Assembly: GCA_001464455.1 (NCBI GenBank)
Contig: LNEI01000012.1
Coordinates: 1-64,000 of the forward strand
Origin: Acidobacteria bacterium Ga0077534
Lineage (GTDB): Bacteria; Acidobacteriota; Blastocatellia; Pyrinomonadales; Pyrinomonadaceae
Direction: 5' to 3'
Length of the DNA stretch: 64,000 nt
Positions 20,787-58,566 of the stretch are shown in pieces. Each line of letters opens with the position of its first letter. Position 1 is the stretch's first letter. A model generated the notes under the pieces. The model worked only from the letters and a program-made list of their open reading frames with translations. It ran no database searches and was not told where the DNA came from. A program made the position numbers and the translations under genes.

Positions 20787-20851
20787 TATTAAGCTCTGGC
20801 GGCATGATAGCACGATTTTGTGAAGCTTTGTTGTAAGATGTCTCTAACTGT

Positions 20852-22234
20852 ATGGCGAAATTTCGCATAGGATTGGGCGTTTCGGGTGGTATTGCGGCTT
20901 ATAAGGCGGTCGAGGTTTTGCGGCTGTTGCAGAAGGCCGGGTGTGATGTGTCGGTGGCGATGACGCGGCATGCGACGGAGTTTGTTAGACCGCTCACGTT
21001 TAGGGCTTTGACGGAGCGGCATGTCATTGTGGACGATTACGATCCGGCGAATCCCGACCCGATCGCGCATATCAATTTTTCGCAAAATATCGACCTGCTC
21101 CTGATCGTTCCGGCGACGGCGAATATCATTGCAAAATTCGCCAACGGCGTGGCGGACGACTTTCTTTCCTCGACCTATTTGGCGACGACCGCTCCGGTAA
21201 TGATCGCTCCGGCAATGAACACGACGATGTGGGAACAGCCGGCGACGCAGCGAAATGTCGAGCGGCTGCGGGCAGACGGCGTGCATTTTGTGGAGCCGGT
21301 CGCGGGGGAACTTGCTTGTAAGACGGTCGGGACGGGGAAGCTCGAGGATGTGGAGAATATTGTTGCGCAGGCTTTGGGATTTTTAACCGCAGAGACGCCG
21401 AGACGCGGAGAGAGCAGGAACCCAAACTCCCCTACTTACGAAGGAGGGGTGGCAGATTCGGCGTCTTTTGCCGAATCTGACGGGGTGGTTCTCTCGTCAC
21501 GCATTGAGTCAACGTCCGTGGAACCGGCGGTAGAGAACCACCCCGTCGGCGAAGCGCCGCCACCCCTCCTTCGTAAGGAGGGGAGCCTGGATCTTGTCGC
21601 CGAGCGATTCCTGATCACCGTCGGCGGAACCCGGGAGGCGATCGATCCGGTTCGGTTTATTTCAAATCATTCGTCGGGGAAGATGGGGTTTGCGGTCGCC
21701 GAAGCGGCGGCGGCTAGGGGGGCGGATGTGACTGTTGTCGCGGGTGAGACGAAGGTTCCGCCACCGGCAACCGTTCGGGTGATCAGAGGCATCTCTGCCG
21801 CAGAAATGCACGCGGCGGTGATGAGCGAGCTCGCCAACGCGACCGTTTTTATCGGTGCAGCGGCAGTCGCGGATTATGCTCCTGCGAATGCGGCGGAAGC
21901 GAAGATCAAAAAAGAAGGCCGCGATGTGATGACACTCGAACTTGTCAAAACGCCCGATATTCTCGCTGATGTCTCGCGGAACCGGCACGACGGCCTGATG
22001 GTCGTTGGCTTCGCGGCTGAGACCAACGACGTCGTCGCTTATGCACGGTCGAAGATGGAAAAAAAAGGCCTCGATCTGGTTGTGGCGAATGACATAACGA
22101 AAGAAGGCGCGGGTTTTAATACGGATACCAACATTGCGACGATCATCACACGCGATTCGGAAACAGAATTACCGCTCATGTCGAAAAGGGAACTGGCGGA
22201 TAAGATTCTGGATGAGGTTTTGCGGCTGCGATAG
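20852..22234 (+). CDS. coaBC: CoaBC: PPC decarboxylase / PPC synthetase with inserted repeat linker
   Basis: Bifunctional coenzyme A biosynthesis enzyme, 460 residues against a usual ~400. The N-terminal flavin-dependent decarboxylase (CoaC) has GVSGGIAAYKAVEVLRLL, the TRHATEFVRPLTFRALT block, LIVPATANIIAKFANGVADD, and PAMNTTMWEQPATQRN. The C-terminal synthetase (CoaB) has ITVGGTREAIDPVRFISNHSSGKMG and ANATVFIGAAAVADYAP, ending with the VANDITKEGAGF block. Between them, residues about 180-247 are not conserved sequence: they are translated repeats (R15 and an inverted R7 pair). Both catalytic domains look intact. Upstream of the uracil-DNA glycosylase gene. Confidence 0.92.
   Translation: MAKFRIGLGVSGGIAAYKAVEVLRLLQKAGCDVSVAMTRHATEFVRPLTFRALTERHVIVDDYDPANPDPIAHINFSQNIDLLLIVPATANIIAKFANGVADDFLSSTYLATTAPVMIAPAMNTTMWEQPATQRNVERLRADGVHFVEPVAGELACKTVGTGKLEDVENIVAQALGFLTAETPRRGESRNPNSPTYEGGVADSASFAESDGVVLSSRIESTSVEPAVENHPVGEAPPPLLRKEGSLDLVAERFLITVGGTREAIDPVRFISNHSSGKMGFAVAEAAAARGADVTVVAGETKVPPPATVRVIRGISAAEMHAAVMSELANATVFIGAAAVADYAPANAAEAKIKKEGRDVMTLELVKTPDILADVSRNRHDGLMVVGFAAETNDVVAYARSKMEKKGLDLVVANDITKEGAGFNTDTNIATIITRDSETELPLMSKRELADKILDEVLRLR
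21390..21417. repeat. R15 GCAGAGACG-type tandem repeat inside coaBC
   Basis: CCGCAGAGACGCCGAGACGCG is read in frame as AETPRRGE at the start of the CoaBC interdomain insertion. Confidence 0.6.
21426..21586. repeat. R7 inverted pair inside coaBC
   Basis: Arm 21426-21490 (CTCCCCTACTTACGAAGGAG ... GACGGGGTGGTTCTCT) faces arm 21533-21586 (AGAGAACCACCCCGTC ... CTCCTTCGTAAGGAGGGG). Both are translated, giving SPTYEGGVADSA...SDGVVLSS and VENHPVGEAPPPLLRKEGS. A single R7 unit lies in xdhA at 36098-36155. Confidence 0.85.
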
Positions 22235-22295
22235 GCTTGATGTCTTGTTCGATTTTATCAGTTGCCTTCAGCTTAGCAGGAAATGATATTGCATT

Positions 22296-22364
22296 GGCTT
22301 TTGCCGAATATTAGGCTAAAGCCGAAAATCTTTTTAGAAACTAACCTCCAGCTAAAGCTGGAGG
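22296..22364. repeat. Two hairpins upstream of the uracil-DNA glycosylase gene (includes R9)
   Basis: Hairpin 22296-22323 (GGCTTTTGCC/GGCTAAAGCC) and the near-perfect palindrome R9 at 22345-22364 (CCTCCAGCTAAAGCTGGAGG). The right half of R9, GGAGG at 22360-22364, lies six bases before the ATG and appears to serve as the ribosome binding site. Confidence 0.75.
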
Positions 22365-22370
22365 CAATTC

Positions 22371-23336
22371 ATGGGAACAGAACTCACAAAAGGATCGGAA
22401 CTTTCAGAGCTTATTTCGGATGTTCGTGAGAAAGTGCTTTATATGCAGGAGCTTGGGGTCGCATCCCTGGGTGTTGAACTAACGGCGAGGTCTGCGCTAG
22501 CGACGGGCGTTGAGGCTCGATCCCCAAGGGTTGCAATCGCCGCAGAATCTGTTGCTCCTCGCGATGCGGAACGATCTACTCCACTGCCACCCGCTAACGC
22601 AGGCGGTTTTGACAAAAAGCCCGGTTCACGTCTGGCCTCGTTGCCGTCACTTTCAAGCAGAAAGACCATGCCATTTTTTGATAAATACAATCCGGGAGAT
22701 GATGGGCGAGGGGCGAGGGCTGACGAGACTACGGTGCTGAGGAGCGTTAAGATCGCTCCCACTTTGCCCGAACCGACTGAGACTATCGAGCAGATCCGGG
22801 CCGATATCGGGCCCGATTGTACGCGGTGCAAGTTGTCGGAGTGTGGCCGCAAACAGGTTGTGAACAGCGTCGGGAATTTTAACGCTGATCTGATGTTTGT
22901 GGGCGAAGCTCCGGGGGCTGACGAGGATATTCAGGGCGAGCCATTTGTGGGCAGAGCCGGGCAATTATTGACCGATATCATTGAAAAAGGCCTTCAGATC
23001 CCTCGTAAGGATGTTTTTATCGGCAACATCAACCGCTGCCGCCCGCCGGGAAATAGGACGCCGGAGCCGGATGAAGCGGCTGTATGCAAACCGTTTTTGC
23101 TTCGCGAGATCGCGGTTGTTCGGCCTAAGGTGATCGTCGTGCTCGGAGCACACGCTGCTCAGGGGCTACTTGAGACAAAGGTCCCGATCTCAAAACTCCG
23201 AGGGCATTTTCACGATTATTTGGGCACCAAGGTGATGCCGACGTTTCATCCCGCCTATCTTCTGCGTGACCCACACAAAAAGCGCGAGGTCTGGGAAGAT
23301 ATGAAGATGGTCCTCAGCTATCTGAAGACAGCTTGA
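22371..23336 (+). CDS. Uracil-DNA glycosylase, family 4 (Fe-S type), with repeat-derived N-terminal linker
   Basis: A 321-residue type-4/5-like UDG that removes uracil from DNA. The catalytic domain is about residues 135-320: Fe-S cysteines begin at CTRCKLSECGRK, then MFVGEAPGADEDIQGEPFVGRAGQLL (glycosylase motif), NINRCRPPGNRTPEPDE, and the C-terminal MPTFHPAYLLRDPHKK. The N-terminal ~130 residues are low complexity. At about 72-84 they include PPANAGGFDKK, which is a translated R1 element. The N-terminal MGTELTKGSELSELISDVREKVLYMQELG is a normal helical lead. Downstream of coaBC. Confidence 0.88.
   Translation: MGTELTKGSELSELISDVREKVLYMQELGVASLGVELTARSALATGVEARSPRVAIAAESVAPRDAERSTPLPPANAGGFDKKPGSRLASLPSLSSRKTMPFFDKYNPGDDGRGARADETTVLRSVKIAPTLPEPTETIEQIRADIGPDCTRCKLSECGRKQVVNSVGNFNADLMFVGEAPGADEDIQGEPFVGRAGQLLTDIIEKGLQIPRKDVFIGNINRCRPPGNRTPEPDEAAVCKPFLLREIAVVRPKVIVVLGAHAAQGLLETKVPISKLRGHFHDYLGTKVMPTFHPAYLLRDPHKKREVWEDMKMVLSYLKTA
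22586..22620. repeat. R1 element inside UDG gene
   Basis: CCGCTAACGCAGGCGGTTTTGACAAA matches, in reverse orientation, the R1 consensus TGTCAGAACCGCCTGCGTCAGCGG seen in xdhA. Translated in frame. Confidence 0.78.
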
Positions 23337-30036: not shown

Positions 30037-31032
30037 TCATGCGGGCGGTTCCGCCGCGTTTCGGACCGCGATGATCTCCGCAGCGATCGAAACTGCGATC
30101 TCCTCTGGCGTTTGGCTGTTGATCATAACGCCAATGGGAGCATGGATCGTAGCAAGCCTCTCCTGATCAAGCCCCTCGAAGCGAAGCTCCCTCATAAGCG
30201 TCGCCATCTTCGCCTTACTTCCCAGAACACCGAAATACCTAAGGTCTCGGCCGATCAACTGCCGAATGACAACTGCGTCGCTTGCATAACCGAGCGTCAT
30301 CACCGCGACGAAAATATTCGGATCATCTGGAACATACTGACCGATATTCTCATAGGAATCGACGATCGTAACGTCATCGGCAAACTCGTTTTTCAGAAGG
30401 GTATTCAACTCAGGCCGGTCGTCGAGGATCCGGATCCGAAAATTCAATCCTGTCATTAGCCCACTCAGGGCAAGGGCGCAATGGCCGCCGCCGATGATGA
30501 TGAGTTCATTAGCGGGAGCGACTCGCTCCTGATAAACAAAGTCGTCTTCGTTAGACTTTGAAAAGTAGCGAGGGGAGTTTTCACTGGCATTTTCAACAAT
30601 TTGGAATCGCAAATCTGAAACTTTAAATACTGCGGGCATTCGTCTATCGAGACTCCCGGCGATAGCATCAACAGATTCTAGATCGGCGGGCGTGAGAAGT
30701 TGCAAGATAACGGCCTGTCGGCCCGAACAGATCATGCCGCTGGCGTCGGGTGAGTGTTTTTGGTGGACCTGCTGGATCAATTCCGAGTGTGCAGACGCGG
30801 TCGCTACCGCTCCCGGTTCTGACAAAAGGGCTCGCGCCTTTTCAACGAGATTTACCTCCATCAACCCGCCGCCGATGCTTCCGTGCAGTTCGCCGTCCGA
30901 TGCGACCGACATTTTGTAACCAGCTCGTCCGGGGCTCGAACCGGAGCTTTCGGCGACCACCAGAAGCACTACTTGCTGGCTGACTTCAAGCTTCGACCGA
31001 ACAAATCGCCAGAATTCGATTTCCTTTCGCAC
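30037..31032 (-). CDS. xdhC: XdhC/CoxI-family protein with repeat insertion
   Basis: A 331-residue XdhC-type factor that binds molybdenum cofactor and supports xanthine dehydrogenase maturation. The N-terminal XdhC_CoxI domain has SSGSSPGRAGYKMSVASDGELHGSIGGGLME (about 30-60). The C-terminal Rossmann-like part begins LIIIGGGHCALALSGLMTGLNFRIRILDDRPE and contains VTLGYASDAVVIRQLIGR. Residues about 68-78 (LSEPGAVATAS) are a translated R2 repeat, also found in the MPG glycosylase gene. XdhA/XdhB lie about 2-6 kb away on the same strand. Confidence 0.83.
   Translation of the reverse strand: MRKEIEFWRFVRSKLEVSQQVVLLVVAESSGSSPGRAGYKMSVASDGELHGSIGGGLMEVNLVEKARALLSEPGAVATASAHSELIQQVHQKHSPDASGMICSGRQAVILQLLTPADLESVDAIAGSLDRRMPAVFKVSDLRFQIVENASENSPRYFSKSNEDDFVYQERVAPANELIIIGGGHCALALSGLMTGLNFRIRILDDRPELNTLLKNEFADDVTIVDSYENIGQYVPDDPNIFVAVMTLGYASDAVVIRQLIGRDLRYFGVLGSKAKMATLMRELRFEGLDQERLATIHAPIGVMINSQTPEEIAVSIAAEIIAVRNAAEPPA
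30799..30827. repeat. R2 element inside xdhC
   Basis: Minus-strand TTTTGTCAGAACCGGGAGCG plus GTAGCGACC. It matches 40936-40964 in the MPG gene at nearly every base, in the same reading frame. Confidence 0.8.
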
Positions 31033-35643: not shown

Positions 35644-37140
35644 TTATACCGCGTTCTGACCAAAAATTTCGTAGAAATGTGCCGTGAAGAGCTGTCGAAG
35701 CAACAACCGTTTGTATTGCTCCGTTCCGCGAACATCTGAGATCGGCGAGATCTCGGATTGCATTATTTCGTTTGCGGCAATGATCGTTTCTTCCGATACT
35801 TCCTTGTCGTTGAGGAAAGCCGAGGTTTCTTTTAAGTATAGTGGCACTGGGGCAACGCCGCCGGCGGAAATGTGCGCTGACTGGACCGCAAGCGTCCCGC
35901 TTGCACGATGTTCGACGATCATCGACATGGCGGTATTTACAGTCGCGATGTCGAGATACGTTCGTTTGCAGACCTTTTCGAAATTGAAGCGGACATTGGG
36001 CGTCGGCTTTTTGAATCTTATTTTTCTGATGATCTCGTCGGGTTGTTTGGCTAGTTGTTTGTAGCCTTGATATAGGTCTTGGAGTTTCGTGTTGCGAGAG
36101 AGAACCACCCCGTCAGCCGAGGCGGCTGCCTCCCCTCCTTCGTAAGGAGGGGAGCTAAGTGTAATTTCAGCATCGAGTGCCAGGAACCAGATGGTCATGT
36201 CGCCGATCGGGGAGGCGTTGATGAAGTTGCCTGCCAGCGTTGCCATGTTGCGGATCGGGGTGGATGAAACGAGTTTTAGGTGTTTGTAGAGATCAGGGAA
36301 AATCCCGTTCATCACTGGAGATTCGAGCAGGTCGGTGACGGTCGCTGAGGCTCCGATCTCGATGTATTCGCCGGCGTCGGTGATACCGCGCAAGTTTTCG
36401 TTGTAGAAGAGCGGCATTGTGGCAGATTCGGCCATCGAGTCGTGCCGCTGAACGTAAAGATCGGTGCCGCCGCCTGTCAGAACCGCCTGCGTAAGAGGGC
36501 GGCAATTTACTGCATTTACATTCAACGTCACTGGAAGGACTCGACTCAACCGCTCCGCGATGGTTTCGAAGTATTTGGGAACGACGCGTTGTTTGATCGC
36601 GGTGTTCGTGCCGCCCGCTGACGCAGGCGGTTCTGACAGGCGTGCGGCAGCTCGTTCGATGGATTTATATCCGGTGCAGCGGCAGATGTTGCCGTCGATC
36701 GATGAGATCGCCTCGTTTCTTCGAGATAACGGATCTTGGTCGTTCGCACCCGACGGCAAAGATGTCGGCGTTCCAAGGCAAAAGCCCGTCAGAGACATTA
36801 CGAAACCCACGGTGCAAAACCCGCACTGCGTGCCGCTTTCGTCGACCATTGCTTGCTGCACTGGCGTTAGAGAACCGTCAGCCGGATTTATACCCTCGAT
36901 AGTGACGATGTGTTTTCCGGCTGCGTTGGCGAGTGGCATCAGGCACGAGGTCATGGAGCGGTAGCGGACCTTGTCATCGATCAGCTCACCGACGAGTATC
37001 GTGCAGGCTCCGCAGTCGCCTTCGCGACAACCAATTTTTGTGCCCTTCAGATCCTTGTGATAACGAACAAAATCAAGCACCGTCGAGCCGGGCGGCTGAT
37101 CGGTTGAAATATCGTCATTGTTGAGGATGAATGAGATCAT
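35644..37140 (-). CDS. xdhA: Xanthine dehydrogenase, 2Fe-2S and FAD subunit, with three repeat insertions
   Basis: A 498-residue small subunit. The N-terminal plant-type 2Fe-2S cluster is GCREGDCGACTILVG (C38, C43, C46), followed by the second cluster CGFCTVGF ... GNICRCTGYKSIE. The FAD-binding part contains GGGTDLYVQ, LEIGASATVTDLL-like (EIGASATVTDLL), TPIRNMATLAGNFINASPIGD, and the CO-dehydrogenase flavoprotein C-terminal domain. Non-conserved insertions at about residues 167-177 (R1), 212-222 (R1) and 328-347 (R7) are translated palindromic repeats placed between structured blocks. Catalytic signatures appear intact. Confidence 0.92.
   Translation of the reverse strand: MISFILNNDDISTDQPPGSTVLDFVRYHKDLKGTKIGCREGDCGACTILVGELIDDKVRYRSMTSCLMPLANAAGKHIVTIEGINPADGSLTPVQQAMVDESGTQCGFCTVGFVMSLTGFCLGTPTSLPSGANDQDPLSRRNEAISSIDGNICRCTGYKSIERAAARLSEPPASAGGTNTAIKQRVVPKYFETIAERLSRVLPVTLNVNAVNCRPLTQAVLTGGGTDLYVQRHDSMAESATMPLFYNENLRGITDAGEYIEIGASATVTDLLESPVMNGIFPDLYKHLKLVSSTPIRNMATLAGNFINASPIGDMTIWFLALDAEITLSSPPYEGGEAAASADGVVLSRNTKLQDLYQGYKQLAKQPDEIIRKIRFKKPTPNVRFNFEKVCKRTYLDIATVNTAMSMIVEHRASGTLAVQSAHISAGGVAPVPLYLKETSAFLNDKEVSEETIIAANEIMQSEISPISDVRGTEQYKRLLLRQLFTAHFYEIFGQNAV
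36098..36155. repeat. R7 element inside xdhA
   Basis: GAGAACCACCCCGTCAGCCG leads to an 11-bp hairpin CTCCCCTCCTT/AAGGAGGGGAG. Translated (minus) as SSPPYEGGEAAASADGVVLS, the same frame as the first R7 arm of coaBC. Confidence 0.85.
36475..36503. repeat. R1 element inside xdhA, copy 1
   Basis: CTGTCAGAACCGCCTGCGTAAG and onward, translated on the minus strand as RPLTQAVLTG just before the FAD motif GGTDLYVQ. In opposite orientation to the copy at 36610-36639. Confidence 0.78.
36610..36639. repeat. R1 element inside xdhA, copy 2
   Basis: GCCGCCCGCTGACGCAGGCG and a GTTCTGACAG end, translated on the minus strand as LSEPPASAGGT. With copy 1 it forms an inverted pair separated by about 106 bases. 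Confidence 0.8.
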
Positions 37141-37214
37141 TGGCGAAAACTAACAACGGTTCAACGCGGATTTGCACTGATCATTCAACAAAGGAGGTCG
37201 TTGATCCGTTATTC

Positions 37215-40575: not shown

Positions 40576-41232
40576 ATGAACGCGAAACTCGACCAAAACT
40601 TTTACCTCAGAACCGACACCGTTGCCATCGCCCGCGATCTGCTAGGTAAACTCCTCGTCGTCCCCACCGAAACCGGCGAACGCGTCTCCGGAATGATCGT
40701 CGAGACCGAAGCGTACCTGGGCGAAACCGACCGCGCCGCCCATTCGTTTGGCGGACGGCGAACTGCGAGAAACGAGGTCACATATTGGGAAGGCGGTCAT
40801 GTCTATGTTTTCTTCATCTACGGCATGTACTATCAGCTAAATGTTGTGTGTGGGGAAGCTGACTCACCTCATGTGGTCCTGATCCGCGCCGTCGAACCGG
40901 TCGAAGGCATAGAGATAATGCGTGAGCGACGTGGCTTTTTGTCAGAACCGGGAGCGATAGCGACTTGGTCACGACGAGATCAGAACCTGACATCCGGCCC
41001 AGGAAAACTCTGCATCGCACTCGACATCGACCGCAGCATCAACGGCGAAGAACTAAGCGGGAATCGAATTTGGCTCGAAGATCGCAAACAGTTTTTGGAT
41101 ATCGAGATCTCGGTTGGCAAACGCATCGGCATCGATTATGCAGGGGATGACGCGGCCAGGCCATTAAGGTTCTGGGTACGGGATAATCCCTTCGTCAGCA
41201 AACCGCGCTTAGAAATATCGACTGAAAACTGA
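40576..41232 (+). CDS. 3-methyladenine DNA glycosylase (AAG/MPG type) with repeat insertion
   Basis: A 218-residue MPG-fold glycosylase excising alkylated purines. Hallmarks: ARDLLGKLLV, GMIVETEAYLGETDRAAHSFGGRRTARN, VYVFFIYGMYYQLNVVCGEAD, VLIRAVEPVEGIEIM, and LTSGPGKLCIALDID. Between the MRERRG segment and LTSGPGKLC, residues about 120-130 (FLSEPGAIATW) are a translated R2 repeat, identical in frame to the one in xdhC. The active-site residues lie outside it, so activity may be kept. Confidence 0.92.
   Translation: MNAKLDQNFYLRTDTVAIARDLLGKLLVVPTETGERVSGMIVETEAYLGETDRAAHSFGGRRTARNEVTYWEGGHVYVFFIYGMYYQLNVVCGEADSPHVVLIRAVEPVEGIEIMRERRGFLSEPGAIATWSRRDQNLTSGPGKLCIALDIDRSINGEELSGNRIWLEDRKQFLDIEISVGKRIGIDYAGDDAARPLRFWVRDNPFVSKPRLEISTEN
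40936..40964. repeat. R2 element inside the MPG gene
   Basis: TTTTTGTCAGAACCGGGAGC then GATAGCGAC. Shares its TGTCAGAACCG head with R1 elements and matches 30799-30827 in xdhC. Confidence 0.8.
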
Positions 41233-56645: not shown

Positions 56646-57232
56646 TAGCCACGTGCTTTAGCACGTGGGCCGGGTTGGGTTAGAATTTGGAGGGCGTTTT
56701 AACGTCCTTTCTTTGCTTTAGCAAAAAATGTCGAGCAGCGTTTACTCAGAGATAAATTTCCACATCACTTGGCACACTAAAGCGAGCTTGCCAATGATAA
56801 CTGAACGCATCGAAAACCGGCTTTATCAATATCTCACCCACAAAATTCTAGAAACGCCCGGCGCGAGGCTTCATGCGATCGGCGGGATCGAAACTCACAT
56901 TCATATCGCAACAAGTTTGCAGCCGAACATTCTCGTTTCCGACTGGATCGGGAAACTGAAAGGGTCGAGTTCATACTACATCAACCACGAGGTTCAGCCG
57001 AAAGCTCTCGAATGGCAACGCGGGTACGGAATTGTGACGTTTGGTACTAAAGATTTGCAGTGGGTGATCGATTACATTAACGATCAAAAAGAGCATCATA
57101 AACGCGGAACAATGCGCGAACGGCTCGAACGACATTTCGAGGTCGAGGGGTAACGTGCGATGGGGAAAGGACGTTAAAACGCCCTTTTTTAGTCGCGGGC
57201 ATTTCATGCCCACGCCCTGAAGTGCGTGGCTA
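56646..57232 (+). mobile_element. IS200-like/REP-associated element
   Basis: The transposase gene is enclosed by a perfect 19-base inverted repeat, 56692-56710 and 57166-57184 (GGGCGTTTTAACGTCCTTT and complement), and outer hairpins: CCACGTGC/GCACGTGG at 56649-56668 on the left, GGGCAT/ATGCCC (57197-57211) and CCACGC/GCGTGG (57210-57229) on the right. A 14-base perfect palindrome, CCGCGTTAACGCGG, lies further left at 56615-56628. No target-site duplication is expected for this family. Exact ends are not proven. Confidence 0.75.
56728..57153 (+). CDS. tnpA: IS200-family Y1 transposase (TnpA/RAYT-like)
   Basis: A 141-residue HUH single-strand transposase. The HUH motif is H57-I-H59 in GIETHIHIA, and the catalytic Tyr is Y116 in VIDYINDQKEHH. 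The core LVSDWIGKLKGSSSYYIN is typical. Length fits IS200 TnpA. The gene is flanked by hairpins on both sides (mobile element 56646-57232) and no TnpB is present. Such enzymes act on palindromic ends, which makes this a candidate mobiliser of the REP-like families in the window, but sequence similarity of its hairpins to R1-R10 is limited. Confidence 0.9.
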   Translation: MSSSVYSEINFHITWHTKASLPMITERIENRLYQYLTHKILETPGARLHAIGGIETHIHIATSLQPNILVSDWIGKLKGSSSYYINHEVQPKALEWQRGYGIVTFGTKDLQWVIDYINDQKEHHKRGTMRERLERHFEVEG

Positions 57233-57384
57233 GGTGCCGCGAAACGCGAGAAGACGGCTGGAGCCGCCTGCAGTAATGACCTAATGACTCGGCTCTAATA
57301 GATTTCGGGGGTTGTATTGGGAGACTGCTAATCTGCGGTCTGTATCTTAACCGATTCTGTTTTCCCAGATTAATCGCTACCATA

Positions 57385-58566
57385 GTGCGAGTGCACATTC
57401 TCATCATAAAACTCGGCAGTATCGGCGATATCATCCACACGCTCCCCGCGCTTTCGGCGATGCGGCATTCGTTGCCTGAAGCCGAAATATCGTGGGTGGT
57501 TGAGGAGCGGTCGGGGGAGATTTTGCGGGGGTGTCCTTTGATCGACAATTTGATCGAGGTCGATACTAAGAGTTTGCGGGGCGGGAAGGTAATTGAGGAG
57601 ATCTTGCTGGGGGCGACGCGGCAGGTGAAGGAGCTGCGGCGGTTTAAGTTTGATGTTTCGATCGATTTTCAGGGGCTTTGGAAATCGGCGATGATAGGGA
57701 AGCTGTCGGGGGCGAAGAGGCGGTTTGGGTTTGATAAGGACGGGCTGCGTGAGGCTTCGAGCCGGGTTTTGTTAACTGATACCGTGGCGGTTCCTACGGG
57801 GATCCATGTGATCAAAAAGAATCTGGCGTTGGCTGCGGGGGCGCTCGGTATCGATGTGCCGGATCGGGATTTTGAGTTTCCGATCGCTACATCCGAAGAG
57901 CATATTACTGAAGCCGGTGCGATAGTCGAGGCGATCTTTTGCAAAAGCCCGCGCGTTAGCAAGGGCGATCGGCGCACGTTGGATGATACGCCCTTGCTAA
58001 CGCGCGGGCCTTTGCAGGGGGAAGTCGAAACGCGGGGCTTGGAGGAAACGCCCTTGCTTGCGCGCGGGCCTTTGCAGAGAGATCGATTTGCGATCCTTAA
58101 TCCGGCGGGCGGCTGGGTGACTAAGCTTTGGCACGCGGAGAAGTTCGGTGCGTTGGCCGACCGGATATGGGAAGATCATGGCTTGCCTTCGCTGATAGTC
58201 ACCGGGCCGGGAGAGACTGAGTTGGCGGAGAAAGCGGCTTCCAGCAGCCGTTCTGGTAAACTGACTCTCGCGGAACCGAGCCTGAAAGGCTTCTACGAAC
58301 TCGCAAAACGAGCGTCGATCTACGTCGGCGGCGACACCGGGCCGACACACTTAGCCGTCGCGGCCGGAGTTCCTATCGTCGGTATTTTCGGCCCGACCGA
58401 ATGGTGGCGAAACGGCAGCCCGAACCCCGACGACATCTGCGTGGAACGAAACGACATCGGCTGCCGCGTCGATTGCCACAGGCGAACGTGCTCGAACTGG
58501 ATTTGCATGGATATCACTGTTGATACGGTCGCGGCTGCGGTTGAGAAAAGGCTCCGAATAAACTGA
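57385..58566 (+). CDS. LPS heptosyltransferase (GT9) with translated R5 insertion
   Basis: A 393-residue GT9 enzyme adding heptose to lipid A-core. The N-terminal ILIIKLGSIGDIIHTLPALSAM is diagnostic. Also RFKFDVSIDFQGLWKSAMIG, ILNPAGGWVTKLWHAEKFGALAD, the donor site YVGGDTGPTHLAVAAGVPIVGIFGPTEWWRNGS, and a Cys-rich end (GCRVDCHRRTCSNWICM). Residues about 185-231 (beginning CKSPRVSKGDRR) are translated R5 repeat between the two Rossmann domains. Start is GTG at 57385; GTG at 57391 is an alternative. Heptosyltransferase I versus II is not decided. Confidence 0.9.
   Translation: MRVHILIIKLGSIGDIIHTLPALSAMRHSLPEAEISWVVEERSGEILRGCPLIDNLIEVDTKSLRGGKVIEEILLGATRQVKELRRFKFDVSIDFQGLWKSAMIGKLSGAKRRFGFDKDGLREASSRVLLTDTVAVPTGIHVIKKNLALAAGALGIDVPDRDFEFPIATSEEHITEAGAIVEAIFCKSPRVSKGDRRTLDDTPLLTRGPLQGEVETRGLEETPLLARGPLQRDRFAILNPAGGWVTKLWHAEKFGALADRIWEDHGLPSLIVTGPGETELAEKAASSSRSGKLTLAEPSLKGFYELAKRASIYVGGDTGPTHLAVAAGVPIVGIFGPTEWWRNGSPNPDDICVERNDIGCRVDCHRRTCSNWICMDITVDTVAAAVEKRLRIN
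57941..58075. repeat. R5 element with three arms inside the heptosyltransferase gene
   Basis: Arm 1 57941-57967 (GCAAAAGCCCGCGCGTTAGC onward) is inverted to arm 2 57989-58015 and arm 3 58049-58075 (both CGCCCTTGCTTNCGCGCGGG-like). Arms 2 and 3 are direct repeats spaced by exactly 60 bases, which keeps the reading frame. Confidence 0.9.

Follow-up and report, generated by a model that had tools for sequence, protein, structure and literature searches.

The locus examined here raises the question of how coaBC, the gene of a core enzyme, came to carry palindromic repeats in frame between the two domains that it encodes, and whether this DNA serves the enzyme or is merely tolerated. In E. coli, coaBC is known as dfp. 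The gene lies in a window (the whole stretch of DNA analyzed) of 64,000 nucleotides from an uncultured Pyrinomonadaceae-like acidobacterium, and the nearest named relatives of its CoaBC were Acidobacteria MAGs, including Chloracidobacterium sp. UBA3360 and Pyrinomonadaceae bacteria. The repeat labels R7 and R15 were taken from the original prediction, while Rg, Ri3, Rs, Rn, Rd, Rk, Rc, and Rgac were coined in the present analysis. The features of the locus are as follows.

20852-22234, + strand: coaBC ORF, 460 aa (ORF call and Pfam)
21386-21412, + strand: R15 arm, which opens the variable stretch at residue 179 and is read as TAETPRRGE
21422-21590, no strand: inverted repeat with 32 nt arms (21422-21453 and 21559-21590), 91% complementary (inverted-repeat search)
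21427-21493, - strand: R7 unit 1, in-frame peptide SPTYEGGVADSASFAESDGVVL; boundaries read from the sequence
21494-21532, no strand: spacer of 39 bases separating the two R7 units, read from the sequence
21533-21585, + strand: R7 unit 2, inverted with respect to unit 1, in-frame peptide ENHPVGEAPPPLLRKEG

The composition of the insert was confirmed. The original prediction had claimed an R15-type repeat followed by a face-to-face R7 pair with about 40 bases between the arms, the whole being open in one frame between the CoaC and CoaB domains and adding about 65 residues. All of this held: the R15 arm (CGCAGAGACGCCGAGACGCGGAGA, 21388-21411) matched the family pattern with 0 mismatches, the two R7 units and their spacer were found as listed, no stop codon interrupted the CoaBC frame anywhere in the R15 arm, the R7 pair or the spacer, and the variable stretch comprised 68 aa (residues 179-246). 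The insert was flanked by the Pfam domains Flavoprotein (5-175) and DFP (251-432), both matched in full. A single CoaBC was found in the genome, the four other matches in it being element-like pieces in other ORFs. Translation of the insert as part of CoaBC is inferred from sequence alone, there being no protein data; the peptides predicted to span the linker are GFLTAETPRR and ENHPVGEAPPPLLRK.

The insert was predicted to be disordered between two confident domains. An AlphaFold2 model of CoaBC, built on an alignment of 24 sequences (mean pLDDT 86.2, pTM 0.53), gave pLDDT values below 50 at residues 184-189 and 191-243, with confident domains on either side. The solved CoaBC structure 6tgv aligned to residues 2-174 and 246-456 and left the insert unaligned. 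At the nucleotide level, the linker RNA folded at -130.9 kcal/mol, with a z of -10.3 against 100 mononucleotide shuffles and of -9.6 when 60 shuffles were used. No Rfam family matched over 20800-22700 at gathering thresholds.

The families found in the insert are dispersed repeats. A query bearing R7 gave 55 matches in its own genome, many of them one palindrome matched on both strands, which corresponded by hand count to about 33 distinct places spread over many contigs. The R7 pattern was present in 23 of 41 genomes of the genus, with 0 decoy matches in all 41. For Rg, 40 of the 41 genomes were positive, the own genome alone holding 124 copies, and decoy matches were again 0 in the 41. The R15 pattern was present in 36 of 41 genomes and at only three places in the own genome, where its decoy gave 0 matches; R15 decoy matches were nonzero elsewhere (up to six in one relative), and those of Rs reached two per strand and genome. 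Dispersal was checked independently of the linkers for R7, Rg, R15, and Rs; Rn and Rd were not covered. A de novo 13-mer search for families, covering 444 kb of the own genome, yielded only four small clusters. In a 324 kb sample, 83% of which was covered by ORFs of at least 150 aa picked by length and which held few repeat copies, the copies lying wholly inside ORFs were 0/9 for Rk, 6/13 for Rc, 3/5 for R7, 7/11 for Rg, and 3/3 for Ri3.

The same linker was compared across the genus. CoaBC was searched for in 37 same-genus genomes, the own included; four had no match, one (G014) had an element-like match only, and 29 of the 32 CoaBC-bearing genomes were examined (G009, G022, and G023 were left out). 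Some of these loci were truncated at the N-terminus, with the linker present in all. The variable linker was bounded alike in 29/29 loci, preceded by the same residue triplet and followed by Asp-Leu, and ranged from 7 to 68 residues, the shortest (7-8 residues) being those of G021 and G002. On a single length scale, the own linker measured 88 residues and those of other same-genus loci 27-62, a comparison that favors insertion; that of G048 measured 80. In a wider set, 62 of 80 CoaBC loci were measurable, 44 of these not titled Acidobacteria, with a median of 27.5 and a range of 23-99. The same linker in CoaBC proteins of unrelated genera would have refuted the original prediction; the other-genus linkers inspected were unlike it, 18 of the 80 loci being unmeasurable.

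A recognized repeat family, out of about seven, was detected in 22/29 linkers as against 0/85 control windows from the same genes (score threshold 11), leaving seven linkers without a recognized repeat. The motif set used for this score was partly derived from these same linkers, and one linker (L036) that scored exactly 11 was labeled as having none for the tree. A hairpin z below -3 was obtained for 13/29 linkers and for 0/85 control windows. By reading, R15 was recognized in seven loci (the own, G007, G010, G019, G005, G017, and G033), a degenerate R15-like stretch in G012, and R7 in four (the own, G032, G035, and G003); Rg or Ri3 occurred in five linkers and Rs, Rn, and Rd in three each, some linkers holding two families.

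These contents were set against a tree calculated without the linker, in which six of the 27 inner branches were well supported and most were unsupported. The supported branches were (G003, G013) with G017 beside it, G031 with G010 and G019, (G010, G019), and (G032, G004) with G034 beside it. Five of the six united species with unlike linker content, two of these five involving a linker without a recognized repeat, and the sole supported branch with a common element was that of G010 and G019. Thus, unrelated repeat families turn over at one CoaBC site among species. Movement at the linker is itself an inference from differences among species, without strain-level presence/absence data.

The order of events was addressed through R15. 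Its 5′ arm began at the same codon in seven same-genus loci. The pair was complete, with the 3′ arm present, in G007, G010, G019, G005, and G017; the own genome and G033 lacked the 3′ arm, and their 5′ arm was followed by the R7 pair or by Rg, respectively. A 5′ arm with a different element downstream is as expected if a second element had landed in the first or replaced part of it. The original proposal, that elements nested or inserted one after another at a single tolerant point, was therefore supported, with the order of insertion inferred and not shown. Furthermore, one and the same Ri3+R7 composite was found in the linkers of G032 and G003 (L010 and L030), which the species tree does not join; descent, exchange or movement as a composite unit are each possible.

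The insert is thus likely to consist of two stacked REP/REPIN-like palindromic mobile elements, the remnant of an R15 pair and then an R7 pair, inserted successively and tolerated as a passenger in the manner of Rickettsia palindromic elements (RPE). In the mechanism proposed, the elements would move as hairpins by means of an IS200/RAYT-type transposase, the mover of R7 and R15 being unknown. An insertion that disrupted the protein or its folding would be lost, and one falling in a loop and read in frame as a polar, flexible peptide would survive. At the CoaBC linker, the helix before it and the strand after it would fix the ends, and everything between them would be replaceable. The insert would be a tolerated passenger that is not known to be of any use to CoaBC.

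CoaBC was not the only enzyme affected, an extension beyond the original prediction together with the occupation of its linker by different families in different species. Ten chosen R7-bearing ORFs all had a Pfam match: pseudouridine synthase, HsdM, AAA ATPase, AtuA, peptidase M1, PurH, NnrD/YjeF, AMP-binding, Eco57I methylase, and FAD dehydrogenase. The remaining R7 copies lay in short ORFs or were intergenic. Among relatives, the same loop held R7, other repeats or nothing in the RluD-like (10 relatives), AtuA-like (10), acyl-CoA synthetase (10), NnrD (7), and dehydrogenase (2) proteins. A second case of repeats inside a gene was present in the window itself:

35647-37149, - strand: FAD-binding dehydrogenase-like ORF, containing one R7 unit at about 36094-36155 together with two Rg units in inverted orientation, 36471-36504 and 36609-36642

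The reading frame was scored for 68 R7 copies, 56 of them in ORFs of 250 aa or longer and 12 in shorter ORFs with mixed frames. Within the longer ORFs, 33/36 copies in one orientation shared one frame, two frames being open in the unit, and 15/20 in the other orientation shared one frame, with three open. Homologous sites from several species enter into these counts, and 30 loci were picked as the best pattern matches; because the copies are not independent and these loci were so chosen, no p-value is given. Survival alone may account for the bias. In the own acyl-CoA synthetase (L171:12780-13100), the frame was judged by eye to be lost just after the R7 pair, while G008 and G009 kept the gene open with R7 at that place; therefore, some copies inside genes are not harmless.

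Other repeats were seen inside ORFs of the window. An Rg unit (22585-22614) was read within the long N-terminal part of a uracil-DNA glycosylase-like ORF (22371-23336). Two Ri3 units (30793-30822 and 40942-40971), each within an ORF (331 and 218 aa, respectively), were read as SEPGA(V/I)AT, like those of the G032 and G003 CoaBC linkers.

Candidate transposases were abundant. Ten Y1 (RAYT-like) transposases were found in the own genome, and Y1 matches in 34 of 36 genomes, 23 of these belonging to the genus, the own included. The Rk family bordered free-standing RAYTs, on both sides in L251 (= L064), L250, L257, and L259 and on one side in L255, and Rgac bordered embedded ones. No RAYT ending in R7 was found among 60 RAYT loci (about 59 distinct), which do not cover every RAYT of the genus; one R7 lay 1 kb from a RAYT, within another gene. 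A BLAST search of the flanks of the ten own RAYTs returned Rk and Rc-like repeats and no R7. In the window, a Y1 transposase gene (56746-57087) was enclosed by inverted repeats of 21 bp that matched perfectly (56691-56711 and 57165-57185), and the ORF at 57280-58566, immediately downstream of a RAYT-like gene, contained three in-frame Rc units (57940-58082).

Additionally, RAYT genes were found in frame inside host ORFs. The acyl-CoA synthetase frame of G010 (L229:3-2876) contained three Rgac elements, the middle one enclosing an in-frame RAYT, which occupied the loop that carries R7 in G000, G008, and G009. When this RAYT was used as a query against 60 genomes, 58 rows were returned, 14 in open frames of more than 600 aa and one (G036) in a frame of 361 aa on a short contig. 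Ten same-genus genomes had an in-frame embedded RAYT bordered by REP ends (L229, L235-L243): eight in acyl-CoA synthetase, either in the middle loop (G010, G023, G026, and G035) or in the N-terminal loop (G036, G022, G003, and G017), and two in PriA (G032 and G004). Pfam analysis of eight embedded cases gave AMP-binding with Y1 in four, PriA with Y1 in two, DUF1156 with Y1 in one, and aminotransferase with Y1 in one, the Y1 domain of the last lying ahead of the aminotransferase domain. A RAYT was also observed in frame within ORFs of 1252-1255 aa in two genomes of the same class (L252 and L254, from G050 and G054), the L252 protein being DUF1156 plus Y1_Tnp.

The HUH and Tyr motifs were retained in 13/13 embedded RAYTs checked. 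The dN/dS of the RAYT part was 0.095/0.957 for the pair G003-G017 and 0.082/1.60 for G032-G004, and that of the host part 0.019/0.546 and 0.033/0.368, respectively; in the other five embedded-RAYT pairs the RAYT dS was saturated. A candidate start lay within 10 codons of the embedded RAYT in G036 and G035 (GTG) and in G045 (ATG). The notion that embedded RAYTs lack a start codon was rejected as a general rule, since two of the ten same-genus cases had an in-frame GTG within seven codons of the domain; the nearest possible start was 26-81 codons upstream in the other eight. Therefore, internal starts for the embedded RAYTs are not excluded.

Four alternatives to stacked mobile elements were considered. 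The first, that selection maintains the hairpin for an RNA or DNA structure modulating the expression of coaBC, for instance through mRNA folding between the domains, is unlikely, its effect on the mRNA being untested. In its favor, the 13 strongly folding linkers lay far below their shuffles while no control did, and several families, different as they are, retained inverted pairs. Against it, 16/29 linkers fell short of a z of -3, among them the seven without a recognized repeat, the same elements occurred in unrelated enzymes, Rfam gave no match at this locus, and palindromes fold whether useful or not. Also unlikely is local change without mobile elements, either slippage or recombination copying nearby intergenic repeats. 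R15, Rs, Rn, and Rd are of short period and could grow by slippage, and the Ri3+R7 composite recurred in two species unjoined on the tree; nevertheless, copies of R7 and Rg occur on many contigs and in many separate loops. A useful peptide, that is, a flexible linker aiding CoaBC assembly or activity with the repeats as mere raw material, is very unlikely, although enzyme activity remains untested. For each orientation, most R7 copies were indeed read in a single frame although others were open, and the insert lies between domains and is predicted to be disordered, but G021 and G002 cope with 7-8 variable residues and neither the sequence nor the length of the linker is conserved. An assembly artefact or a dying gene is likewise very unlikely: the genomes are drafts, the nearest named relatives are MAGs, and a frameshift affects one further gene that carries an R7 pair, but like patterns recur in many separate assemblies, and an artefactual CoaBC or a pseudogene was rejected on its full Pfam domains and its single copy in the genome.

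The reading as stacked mobile elements was compared with known systems. RPE are palindromic repeats found in frame in genes of conserved proteins and tolerated as extra peptide segments (PMC2229807, PMC3733652). By analogy, R7 in CoaBC would work in the same way, meeting the criterion of palindromic insertion in frame within conserved protein genes; it differs in its acidobacterial genus, in the several families at one site across species and in the RAYT genes in frame inside host ORFs. A REPIN consists of two short palindromes in inverted orientation that together fold into a hairpin, and RAYT genes are flanked by inverted REPs (PMC3116915, PMC2817692). The R7 pair, two inverted copies of a dispersed short palindrome that fold together, meets this criterion, and Rk and Rgac flank RAYTs as inverted REPs do. 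However, REPINs were described in extragenic space (PMC3116915, PMC2817692), and a mainly extragenic location was not met here, since R7, Rg, and Ri3 copies often lay within ORFs (few copies having been sampled).

GTAG/CGTC REPs occur inside ORFs of several species, often as dimers of 20-30 aa, and in Xanthomonas recB approximately one site is occupied by different REPs (PMC3733652). The present case is alike in both respects; it is unlike it in that the turnover covers 29 same-genus loci and that no RAYT embedded in a host ORF was found in the relevant sections of PMC3733652. The definition of CGTC-tagged REPs (CGTC tag, stem of 8-9 bp, CCA tail; PMC3733652) was not met: R7 unit 2 has the CGTC and the CCA, with a stem between them of only about 4-5 bp by eye. 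Coding palindromes have also been described in nematomorph mitochondria (PMC6649704).

In the literature searched, which left most subscription papers outside its coverage, no precedent was found for same-site turnover on this scale or for embedded RAYTs. Nothing on point was found there on acidobacterial or Pyrinomonadaceae REPs or interspersed palindromes, or on a RAYT with in-frame insertion, and nothing useful on the small dispersed repeats of cyanobacteria. As far as this search reaches, REPs inside genes are already known, and the candidate novelty lies in the scale of turnover at one site and in the embedded RAYTs.

Taken across the genus, short mobile palindromes repeatedly enter genes of core enzymes and are readable in frame as floppy extra loops, the CoaBC linker being one such landing spot, and the palindrome that it holds is a different one in most species studied here. 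A bolder reading, for which the evidence falls slightly short of persuading us, is that the mobile system now resides in protein-coding space, its palindromes and sometimes its RAYT gene persisting as in-frame segments of core enzymes. If this were true, the transposase would be synthesized within the host enzyme, and loss of the host gene would cost both, fusion versus internal start being undecided. More generally, these loci show that protein loops serve as a habitat to which mobile DNA returns repeatedly beyond the Rickettsiales, and the many species of one genus act as natural replicates. The system makes testable how new protein segments originate, which reading frames survive and whether a transposase can persist within an essential enzyme.
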